From: Prevotellaceae bacterium
GTDB lineage: Bacteria; Bacteroidota; Bacteroidia; Bacteroidales; UBA932
Reading direction: 5' to 3'
NCBI GenBank assembly: GCA_031268055.1
Contig: JAIRXY010000176.1
Location: 1-15,480 of the forward strand
DNA length: 15,480 nt
The notes below the pieces were generated by a model. That model worked only from the letters and a program-made list of their open reading frames with translations. It made no database searches and had not been told where the DNA came from. The position numbers and the translations under genes are program-made. Positions 7,401-9,791 of the stretch are shown here, one piece after another; the first letter of the stretch is position 1, and the number at the start of each line of letters is the position of its first letter.

Positions 7401-8162
7401 ATGATTAGCAAATCGACCATAAGCCTCATCGCATCGCTGGAGCATAAAAAATACCGCGACAGGCACGGGTTGTTCGTTGCCGAAGGGGTCAAGCTGGTGG
7501 ACGAACTCTGCGCCCGGCTTACCCCATACGCCATTTTCGCTACCACGGCCTCCGGCGACGGCGGCAGCAGCAGCTACAATAGCACAATAATATCTGAGGC
7601 AGAGATGAAAAAAATCAGCTTCCTCAAAACACCCTCGCCCAAGCTCGGCATTTTTCGCATTCCGCAAAGCGCCTCCCCCCCCCTGCCCTCACCCTGCAAG
7701 CTGACGCTGGCGCTCGACGGCGTACAAGACCCCGGAAACATGGGCGCTATCGTCAGGCTGTGCGGCTGGTTTGGCATCGACATGCTGGTGTGCTCGTCCG
7801 GCGCCGCCAGCTGCTACAGCCCCAAGGCAGTACAGGCATCTATGGGCGCCATTGCGCACGTGGAGACGCTCTACACCGACTTGCCCGATTTCTTGTGCAT
7901 GGCAGCGGCAAAAAATATACCGGTGTACGGCACATTTCTGGAAGGGAGAAACATCTACCGCGAACCGCTAAGCGAAGGCTGCATTGTGGTAATGGGAAGC
8001 GAAGGAAAGGGCATAACTCCGGAGGTGGCGCAGCACATTTCGCACAAGCTATACATACCGTCTTTTTCTGCAAGCTGCGGCGTTGAATCGCTGAACGTAG
8101 CAATAGCTTCGGCCATAGTATGCTCCGAGCTATTCAAAAAAAGAATGGAGAACGAAAAATAA
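7401..8162 (+). CDS. TrmH/SpoU-family RNA 2'-O-methyltransferase
   Basis: A 253-residue SPOUT methyltransferase, predicted to transfer a methyl group from S-adenosylmethionine to a ribose 2'-hydroxyl of rRNA or tRNA. The N-terminus (SLEHKKYRDRHGLFVAEG, about 12-29) is the substrate-binding domain typical of RlmB/TsnR-like enzymes. The three SpoU motifs are present: NMGAIVRLCGWFG (catalytic arginine), VVMGSEGKGI, and the knot-forming GVESLNVAIA near the C-terminus. The start at 7401 fits the family, and no in-frame upstream start is needed. Exact target (23S G2251 or another site) cannot be told, so no symbol. It is divergent from the TamL-like gene. tRNA-Leu follows 75 bp downstream under its own promoter. 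Confidence 0.93.
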   Translation: MISKSTISLIASLEHKKYRDRHGLFVAEGVKLVDELCARLTPYAIFATTASGDGGSSSYNSTIISEAEMKKISFLKTPSPKLGIFRIPQSASPPLPSPCKLTLALDGVQDPGNMGAIVRLCGWFGIDMLVCSSGAASCYSPKAVQASMGAIAHVETLYTDLPDFLCMAAAKNIPVYGTFLEGRNIYREPLSEGCIVVMGSEGKGITPEVAQHISHKLYIPSFSASCGVESLNVAIASAIVCSELFKKRMENEK

Positions 8163-8237: not shown

Positions 8238-8319
8238 GCGGATATGGCGTAATTGGTAGCCGCGCCAGACTTAGGATCTGGTGCCGTAAGGCGTGGGGGT
8301 TCGAGTCCCTTTATCCGCA
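8238..8319 (+). tRNA. tRNA-Leu (anticodon TAG)
   Basis: A class II tRNA of 82 bases. The acceptor arms GCGGATA (8238-8244) and TATCCGC (8312-8318) pair perfectly and the discriminator is A. The anticodon stem CCAGA/TCTGG encloses a 7-base loop with anticodon TAG, reading CUA leucine codons. A long variable arm (GCC-GTAA-GGC) and the T-loop TTCGAGT follow. CCA is not encoded. The 3' half is also the integration target of the adjacent element. Confidence 0.97.
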
Positions 8320-8333
8320 CAATCAGCAGAATC
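8275..8333 (+). repeat. attL-like direct repeat (tRNA-Leu 3' end)
   Basis: These 59 bases are identical to 9421-9479, with a constant offset of 1146. The copy runs from the 3' side of the anticodon loop through the discriminator and 14 bases beyond. This is the arrangement expected of tyrosine-recombinase integration into a tRNA gene, with the tRNA kept intact on this side. Weaker identity continues to about 8372. Confidence 0.9.
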
Positions 8334-8344
8334 AAGCATGAATC

Positions 8345-8372
8345 AAGCCCTACAAGAACGTGGGGCTTTTTT
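8345..8372 (+). terminator. Intrinsic terminator of tRNA-Leu
   Basis: AAGCCCTAC (8345-8353) pairs with GTGGGGCTT (8360-8368), nine pairs with one G-T, around a 6-base loop, and a run of six T's covers 8367-8372. A diverged hairpin stands at the same place beyond the second repeat copy (about 9491-9514), but its T run is broken. Confidence 0.75.
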
Positions 8373-8399
8373 GTATGTGCATTTTTACACAAAAATATG

Positions 8400-8407
8400 T
8401 ATATTTG
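8400..8407 (+). promoter_or_regulatory. -7 promoter element for integrase remnant
   Basis: TATATTTG is a full TAnnTTTG match 39 bases upstream of the integrase-stub ATG. No correctly spaced TTG is visible. Confidence 0.35.
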
Positions 8408-8446
8408 CTCGCATATTTGTCATAGTTATATCATAAAAATCTTGCC

Positions 8447-8626
8447 ATGACTTTCAAAATATGGGTCCTTCGCGACAACAAAAAGCAGAATGGGTCAATG
8501 CCCGTTACCATACAGCTCACGCACAACGGGCAGCGGAGGTACATCAAGACGCCGCACGTGGTATTTGCACCGCAGCTCGATAGGAACGGCAATATCAAAG
8601 ACCCCAACAATGCCAATGACAATTAA
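8447..8626 (+). pseudogene. Tyrosine recombinase remnant (N-terminal arm-binding domain)
   Basis: Fifty-nine codons with a clean ATG and TAA. The translation (MTFKIWVLRDNKKQNGSMPV, then THNGQRRYIKT and a short linker) resembles the N-terminal arm-DNA-binding domain of Bacteroidota tyrosine recombinases, which begin with a beta-strand, a basic turn and an ITHNRK-like strand. The core-binding domain and catalytic domain (R-H-R-Y) are entirely missing, so the product cannot recombine DNA. It starts 127 bp from the tRNA and points away from it, the usual place for the integrase of a tRNA-targeted element. A short protein still able to bind att arms is conceivable but unproven. Identification rests on a short motif. 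Confidence 0.65.
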
Positions 8627-8647
8627 AGTTCCATATTTTTTTTATTT

Positions 8648-8995
8648 TTAAGTTGCAGCAGCGCTAACCACTCTAACAACTCCCTGCTGCACCTGTGTGA
8701 TTTCTGAAAAAGAAGCGCACCCTACCCGCTTGATTAGGCGCATTTCCGATATTGACCGAACTTGAAAGCAATCAAGTGCTGAAATTTTTGTTAGCCCATT
8801 CTGTTTCGAAGGCTGTATTTTTACCATCCACGGCGCTGTGCTATAGCGCTCTTTCCAATCAGTAATCGGCACAATAATTTTTAATGGCAACTTGCCAACC
8901 GTGTCGTTATTAATAATCATAGCAGGCCGAATTTTCTTTATCTCTGCGCCTACCGCAGGGTCTAAATTTATCAACCAAATCTCACCTCGCTTCAT
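8648..8995 (-). CDS. MazF/PemK-like endoribonuclease toxin
   Basis: A 115-residue protein of the MazF/PemK/Kid family, toxins that cut mRNA at short sequences unless bound by their antitoxin. The start MKRGEIWLINLDP is the family signature. It is followed by the conserved basic RP segment (KKIRPAMIINND), the IIVPIT strand and the late L-x-K-ISALDCFQVRSIS segment, typical of the dimer-forming sheet. Length is normal (about 110-120). The ATG at 8995 is chosen over a TTG at 9013 because it places RGEIW at the terminus. It overlaps the antitoxin gene by 14 bp, the usual order of antitoxin first. It seems intact. Confidence 0.88.
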   Translation of the reverse strand: MKRGEIWLINLDPAVGAEIKKIRPAMIINNDTVGKLPLKIIVPITDWKERYSTAPWMVKIQPSKQNGLTKISALDCFQVRSISEMRLIKRVGCASFSEITQVQQGVVRVVSAAAT

Positions 8996-9242
8996 AGAAA
9001 TCTTCACAATCAAGCTGCGTGAATATTGTCAACTCGTCATCATGCTTATAGTCATTATATAAACACATTACAGCATTCTCCAACAGGCCTGGGCTTGACC
9101 TAACCACATCGGCCTCCGTCACAAGAGTGACTTTGTATGCTTTGTCTTTGCCTCTTTGGATTAGGACTTCTGCGCCGCTATCCACCTTATCGAGGTAGCT
9201 TCTTTGCTGCTCCCGAAACGCTCTTGAACTCACTACTATCAT
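8982..9242 (-). CDS. Phd/YefM-like antitoxin
   Basis: An 86-residue protein with the N-terminal DNA-binding pattern of Phd/YefM antitoxins in this phylum: MIVVSSRAFREQQRSYLDKV, then the VLIQRGKDKAYKVTLV strand pair. The acidic, aromatic C-terminus (HDDELTIFTQ to DFYEAR) is the likely toxin-wrapping part. Such proteins neutralise the toxin and repress their own operon. The ATG at 9242 is preferred to a longer frame reaching 9350, since the family starts at MxVVSS and the -7 promoter box lies between. It overlaps and precedes the toxin gene. Phd-type antitoxins are usually paired with Doc or RelE/YoeB toxins, so the MazF-like partner is notable. Confidence 0.85.
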   Translation of the reverse strand: MIVVSSRAFREQQRSYLDKVDSGAEVLIQRGKDKAYKVTLVTEADVVRSSPGLLENAVMCLYNDYKHDDELTIFTQLDCEDFYEAR

Positions 9243-9276
9243 AATTTTAAAAAGTTTAATATGTACCAATTTAGTG

Positions 9277-9284
9277 CAAAGGTA
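9277..9284 (-). promoter_or_regulatory. -7 promoter element of the toxin-antitoxin operon
   Basis: On the minus strand 9284-9277 reads TACCTTTG, a perfect TAnnTTTG. The predicted start lies about 30 bases before the antitoxin ATG. No -33 TTG is seen at normal spacing. Confidence 0.55.
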
Positions 9285-9288
9285 GCAA

Positions 9289-9420
9289 TTATTTTTTTCT
9301 TTTGACAGGCTTCTTTTTGCTTGGCTCCGGAAGCAGCTCCGGAGAGTCAATTTTAATTATGGTGAATTCACCATAATTAGAAATGAATCGGGGGCAAGGG
9401 CTTACCGCATCAGCATTAAT
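9289..9420 (-). pseudogene. Truncated 3' coding remnant at the attR junction
   Basis: On the minus strand one frame reads from the right repeat boundary to a TAA at 9291-9289 and looks protein-like: about 43 codons including ADAVSPCPRFISNYGEFTII and ending in a proline/lysine-rich tail (PSKKKPVKRKK). There is no start codon context, because the frame runs into the tRNA-derived repeat at 9421, so only a C-terminus would remain. I do not recognise the family. The frame is interrupted by nothing, but its short length means chance cannot be excluded. Confidence 0.4.
9354..9379. repeat. 26-bp perfect palindrome
   Basis: Thirteen bases on each side mirror exactly with no spacer, centred on GAATTC (9364-9369). 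It lies between the toxin-antitoxin promoter and the right direct repeat, inside the possible coding remnant. It may be an operator, a recombination-related site or an accident of that coding sequence. Confidence 0.9.
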
Positions 9421-9479
9421 GATCTGGTGCCGTAAGGCGTGGGGGTTCGAGTCCCTTTATCCGCACAATCAGCAGAATC
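9421..9479 (+). repeat. attR-like direct repeat (partial tRNA-Leu)
   Basis: Exact second copy of 8275-8333. It holds the 3' 45 bases of the tRNA gene plus 14 flanking bases, without the 5' half, so it cannot make a tRNA. Beyond it, 9481-9518 still resembles 8335-8372 with several differences, including the loss of most of the terminator T run. Confidence 0.9.
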
Positions 9480-9488
9480 CAGCATGAA

Positions 9489-9791
9489 TCAAGACCTACA
9501 GCAACGTAGGGCTTGGTTATTTTTATTTTGTGCACCTTTTGCACAGGTATTTTTGCATAAAGTTCTTTTTTTGCTTGCCTCAGCCTTATCCACCAAAAAA
9601 CATGGCAAGCCGTAAAATAGCATCGCTGCCGTTCCTCCCTTAACCCCAAAATGAAGCGCAAGCTCCCTGTCGGAGTAAATGTCCGGCAAAATTTGGGTTA
9701 AATACATTTTGTGCCTGTTGCTATCCATTTTTCTTTTTGCAATATATTTATTGTAAGATGCTTGCAAAATATTATAGTAGAAGTTTTGCAT
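9489..9791 (-). CDS. Hypothetical ORF, 100 codons, uncertain
   Basis: An uninterrupted frame beginning at an ATG preceded by AAGGAA and ending in the degenerate hairpin beside attR. The middle (DRELALHFGVKGGTAAMLFY) has a credible protein character, while both ends are AT-rich or cysteine-rich and less convincing. No domain is recognised. It lies between attR and the promoter of rpsO, transcribed away from rpsO. It may be a decayed gene or a chance frame. This fills an otherwise gene-free 440-bp gap. Confidence 0.25.
   Translation of the reverse strand: MQNFYYNILQASYNKYIAKRKMDSNRHKMYLTQILPDIYSDRELALHFGVKGGTAAMLFYGLPCFLVDKAEASKKRTLCKNTCAKGAQNKNNQALRCCRS

Follow-up and report, generated by a model that had tools for sequence, protein, structure and literature searches.

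A likely scar of a tyrosine-recombinase element holding a toxin-antitoxin pair at tRNA-Leu(TAG) in a Prevotellaceae bacterium

The window, which is the whole 15,480-nucleotide stretch of DNA analyzed here, is contig C241 of a 2.07 Mb Prevotellaceae genome assembled in 313 contigs (74.5% complete). A SpoU-family rRNA methylase gene forms the host left flank of tRNA-Leu(TAG). This tRNA is the only one that ARAGORN reports for the window, and Rfam finds one tRNA as well. A repeat begins inside this tRNA gene and recurs at an offset of 1146, and the DNA between its two copies holds an integrase stub, a toxin-antitoxin pair, and a fragment of a KilA-N gene (Table 1). Relatives are denoted by G numbers, contigs by C numbers, and fetched stretches by L numbers.

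Table 1. Features at and around the tRNA-Leu(TAG) locus, in window coordinates
Feature	Position	Strand	Evidence
SpoU-family rRNA methylase, host left flank	7401..8162	+	PF00588, 4e-32
tRNA-Leu(TAG)	8238..8320	+	ARAGORN; Rfam RF00005, 56.2 bits
Repeat copy 1, attL-like	8275..8333	+	59/59 identical to copy 2
Diverged continuation of copy 1: terminator-like hairpin and T run	8334..8372	+	hairpin -14.5 kcal/mol
Left-end segment upstream of the integrase; presumed to hold arm sites and promoter	8374..8446	+	73-85% identity to four left ends
Tyrosine-recombinase N-terminal stub, 59 aa	8447..8626	+	PF17293 Arm-DNA-bind_5
PemK/MazF-family toxin, 115 aa from ATG at 8995	8648..8995	-	PF02452
Putative Phd/YefM-like antitoxin, 86 aa, overlaps toxin start	8982..9242	-	weak PF02604; placed upstream of toxin
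KilA-N gene fragment, runs into copy 2	9325..9423	+	tblastn to KilA-N protein of G009 C66
Repeat copy 2, attR-like	9421..9479	+	59/59 identical to copy 1
Diverged continuation of copy 2: hairpin without clean T run	9480..9518	+	hairpin -12.1 kcal/mol

The exact repeat of the tRNA-Leu 3' end, which was the starting point of the original prediction, is confirmed at every position. Copy 1 covers the 3' half of tRNA-Leu(TAG), from tRNA position 38 on. Because the tRNA ends at 8320 and a second tRNA is not called, the repeat consists of 46 nt of tRNA-Leu and 13 nt of flank. A repeat search listed the pair as 94 nt at 95%, with no third copy between 7500 and 10500. The similarity also continues in diverged form through the terminator, as had been proposed, with seven mismatches (8334, 8348, 8355, 8356, 8362, 8369, and 8370) and a hairpin in both copies. 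Six T in a row follow the hairpin of copy 1, and the hairpin of copy 2 has one internal stem mismatch and is followed by GGTTATT. With the T run lost and the stem mismatched in copy 2, transcription may now terminate at copy 1 alone. By judgement rather than by a computed figure, two exact 59-bp copies lying 1.1 kb from each other far exceed what chance would give. A local duplication or an assembly error, with no integration involved, would suit so fragmented and incomplete a genome, but it is very unlikely for a repeat that begins within a tRNA, is followed directly by an integrase left end, and has diverged between its copies at seven sites.

The predicted N-terminal remnant of a tyrosine recombinase passes an integrase-domain profile, as the stub matches PF17293 at 7e-6 (26.9 bits, cut-off 22.6) and its arm-binding domain is thus recognized. 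The first 54 codons match tyrosine recombinases and the similarity stops at 8608. Over 53 aa, the stub is 79-83% identical to full-length integrases of G009, G002, and G003, and 54 codons of about 410 are left between the repeats. No catalytic domain of a tyrosine recombinase is present in the 59-aa stub. The left ends compared with the segment upstream of it came from G009, G002 (twice), and G001. The stub was also considered as a protein family of its own and rejected, as a search limited to proteins of similar length gave just two members, the query and a broken protein of G009.

Behind the stub, the predicted antitoxin/toxin pair is recovered with unequal strength for its two genes. The toxin reading frame (8648-9013, minus strand) is complete and matches PF02452 at 3.8e-25 over positions 1-107 of 109. 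Its family is very common, with 3073 homologues. The putative antitoxin is weakly Phd/YefM-like and scores below the cut-off of PF02604 (0.012, 15.8 bits against 29.8); it has no NCBIfam match. At the DNA level, 8653-9297 matches G001 at 83%, and other genes surround the copy in that genome. Against the G001 copy, the toxin has a Ka/Ks ratio of 0.26, and two short antitoxin pieces have ratios of 0.14 and 0.10; the antitoxin frame contains a stop in G001. No relative of the stub's integrase lies near related toxins in the three fetched stretches (L046 of G001, L088 of G026, and L087 of G034). Since related toxins also occur without the stub's integrase family, we only infer that the pair arrived together with the element. 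Addiction may then have helped the pair, or the scar, to persist.

The partial coding piece noted before copy 2 is most likely a KilA-N fragment, judged by its similarity (tblastn 2.1e-4, 37% over 35 aa, 9325-9429) to a protein on C66 of G009 that itself matches PF04383 at 1.1e-25. The 33-aa piece has no Pfam match of its own. A palindrome at 9344-9389, pieces of which recur in other genomes, was considered as the end of a mobile element and rejected as a separate feature because it sits in KilA-N-like genes. Of five other loci, four (L082-L085) have the palindrome within a gene that resembles the KilA-N protein on C66 of G009. At the fifth (L086), the KilA-N similarity is present, with no long gene over the palindrome in the list of reading frames. 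Its near-exact form occurs in 2 of 60 genomes, the own genome and G005, where contig C41 holds a 22-aa remnant. Just right of copy 2, an N-terminal fragment of an AbiEii-type nucleotidyltransferase (9588-9728, minus strand) is 66% identical over 47 aa to a protein on G009 C92, where the full AbiEii gene is preceded by an AbiEi-like gene. This fragment is a second decayed toxin-antitoxin piece.

Comparison with related genomes places the locus in a wider context. The SpoU gene lies 5' of tRNA-Leu in the window and in four of ten relatives (G001, G002, G008, and G009). In G003, G004, G007, and G010, tRNA-Leu is matched with no SpoU gene within the fetched stretch, which in G004 and G010 lies at a contig end, and in G005 and G006 the tRNA-Leu match was not found. 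The SpoU/tRNA-Leu site of G008 is taken as the empty form because a profile built from ten left ends finds no left end in the 150 nt 3' of its tRNA. For this profile, the left end on contig C79 of the own genome was trimmed to 82 nt and that of G002 C173 was left out. Among other flanks, those of G007 and G010 likewise give no match and that of G003 C34 reaches 1.2 bits. The right flank of the element was not matched to an empty site, as the region upstream of rpsO is other sequence without a tRNA in all eight relatives read (stretches of approximately 0.25 to 1.5 kb).

The stub region was searched for in all 11 genomes of the genus (the own genome and ten relatives) and matched in 5 of them, at nine places; at a tenth place, G001 C53, the match is confined to sequence that precedes the integrase start. 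At tRNA-Leu, G009 C287 keeps approximately 60 integrase codons, followed by a DDE_3 transposase gene, G002 C74 keeps approximately 17 codons in a degraded frame, and G001 C53 is cut before the integrase start codon and retains none. The SpoU/tRNA-Leu remnants of these three genomes and of the window, with its 54 codons, therefore have unequal cut points. Further remnants lie at tRNA-Gln(TTG) on C79 of the own genome, G002 C166, and G001 C52. At tRNA-Arg(CCG), G003 C26 carries a full-length integrase and G001 C52 a left end. Full-length integrases also occur on G009 C267 and G002 C173, and those of G002 and G003 are 72 and 73% identical to that of G009. On C79 of the own genome (L048 826-956), what remains behind tRNA-Gln(TTG) is the terminator of a left end and 55 bp of the integrase stub. 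On G001 C52 (L044 2356-3607), the tRNA-Gln and tRNA-Arg left ends face each other approximately 1.1 kb apart with integrase scraps between them, and the tRNA-Gln left end is seemingly split by an insert with inverted ends.

Taken together, these observations make it likely that a tyrosine-recombinase element, most probably a prophage, once inserted into the 3' half of tRNA-Leu(TAG) and that deletions later shrank it to the scar now seen. The decayed integrative element of the original prediction is supported by the full-length integrases in the genus, the element-free site of G008, and the unequal remnants in G001, G002, and G009; the duplication is not common to all relatives, and both an empty form and longer forms exist. 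The element would have integrated in the 3' half of the tRNA gene, and recombination would have given the tRNA an element-borne 3' half together with the element's terminator (copy 1), while the old 3' half would have been displaced to the far end (copy 2). Later deletions would have taken away almost the whole element, sparing the first 54 integrase codons, the toxin-antitoxin pair, and the KilA-N piece. This order of events is our reconstruction from the remaining parts. The flank and terminator of the repeat may, as originally suggested, have been carried in from a related locus.

Several findings count against the scar, among them the unmatched right flank, the related toxins in stretches where this integrase family was not found, and the conjugation-type neighbours of the own genome's full-length integrase. 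The 13 identical nucleotides and the related terminator outside the tRNA go beyond what a simple replacement of the 3' end needs. The tRNA-Leu left ends differ from that of the window by 0.24-0.35 differences per site, and the SpoU genes of G001, G002, and G009 lie at an overall nucleotide distance of 0.19-0.22, no larger than the left-end distance, although their synonymous distance of 0.64-0.75 is larger. On sequence distances, one old insertion may have been inherited by the genus. Directly behind the tRNA, each of ten aligned left ends, at three tRNA types, has a terminator-like hairpin, which would suit elements that supply the tRNA terminator themselves. The copy 1 form of the terminator, allowing up to 3 mismatches, is found at two places in the own genome (copy 1 and C79), and a consensus of other left ends at none; the terminator as a general feature of this genome was thus rejected.

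The copy 2 terminator is also similar to those of left ends, scoring 29.8 bits across tRNA flank and terminator; this fits an older element as well. A second and still more degraded element could accordingly have its left end in copy 2. It may have been the holder of the AbiEii fragment that follows, and the locus would then be two tandem scars. The integrase family inserts repeatedly at tRNA genes, and such tandems have been described (PMC5704250). This accretion is unlikely, however, because the left-end profile is silent in the flank of copy 2 past its terminator, whereas the flank of copy 1, which is in the profile, scores 61.4 bits, and the repeat search lists no third copy between 7500 and 10500. 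A second element behind copy 2 was rejected on this lack of a match, with 500 shuffles of the flank reaching at most 5.8 bits. An alignment of copy 2 to the left end of G001 spanned 3 nt and was set aside. The scar of a single element, with copy 2 as its attR, fits the silence of the profile behind the terminator of copy 2.

The original prediction also offered a small non-autonomous element, made of two ends and the toxin-antitoxin pair, that a resident integrase moves in trans. The cores are identical over 59 bp, the left-arm region is retained, and the own genome holds a full-length integrase of the wider family. That integrase is just 44-46% identical, however, and the remnants elsewhere stop at different points. 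No other place in the own genome matches both element ends, and the suggested search for 1.1-kb copies with the same ends found none there or in 59 relatives, in each of which at most 6 candidates were scored. With no second copy found in these searches, such an element is very unlikely. It is likewise very unlikely that the locus is still a 1.1-kb cis-mobilizable unit, with two intact core sites, the kept left-arm region, and the addiction pair, which a related integrase cuts out and inserts again in trans; if true, it would be a very small selfish integrative unit.

For the element behind the scar, the integrase neighbours in relatives are informative. The G009 integrase adjoins a 621-aa protein with terminase matches (phrog_24361 4.1e-11, phrog_2 9.8e-9) and no Pfam match, and an SbcC-like gene lies on the same contig. 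In G002, the integrase is followed by an AntA antirepressor and an endolysin amidase, and the G003 integrase adjoins a 903-aa LPD38-domain protein. Because full-length relatives stand beside phage-type genes in G009 and G002, the parent element was probably a prophage. Relatives of the integrase occur in 33 of 50,697 phage records, with 36% identity at best; this best match, the integrase of Bacteroides phage Versailles (ON453897), covers the full length of the G009 relative but is distant. Two tblastn scans of viral contigs found no relative, and a search of genome contigs gave two loci, the contig of G009 itself and a Bacillota record at 34%. Within the element itself, no phage structural, packaging, or lysis genes are present among the pieces that the repeats enclose. 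The resident full-length integrase of the own genome adjoins TraG-like and ParA-like genes, which counts against a phage-only family. It lies at a contig end on C220 (L047 7164-8402) and probably belongs to an integrative conjugative element. On G009 C267, the integrase is preceded by approximately the last 22 nt of tRNA-Leu (one mismatch), and before that by DNA with a second integrase. This junction is an attP or a tandem junction, so the core lies at the tRNA 3' end.

By analogy, the feature would work like a CIME or a defective prophage in a tRNA-Leu 3' end, a target that is already known. A CIME is a cis-mobilizable element that has lost its integration and transfer genes and kept attL and attR (PMC5704250). 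The locus similarly has repeats at both ends, an integrase stub, and retained cargo, but the CIMEs described in that source derive from ICEs or IMEs, whereas the nearest full-length integrases here adjoin phage-type genes. NBU1 of Bacteroides, which is listed with a toxin-antitoxin system, and MTnPi4 of Prevotella intermedia are tyrosine-recombinase elements in the tRNA-Leu 3' end (PMC5704250). They share the kind of target and the host phylum with the locus, but the element here shows no transfer gene, and no relaxase family was found among the scanned proteins between the repeats. The HipAB-stabilized composite genomic island of Shewanella putrefaciens is likewise located at a tRNA gene and contains a toxin-antitoxin pair; as described, it is 48 kb long and has a different toxin family (PMC8978831), and a stabilizing role of the pair in the window is conjectural.

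As it stands, the locus is an ordinary kind of genomic scar. Within its genus, one integrase family is gained and lost at three tRNA genes, and the remnants capture several stages of decay. Were the toxin-antitoxin pair shown to keep the scar where it is, the locus would be a clear example of addiction that outlasts the element carrying it.
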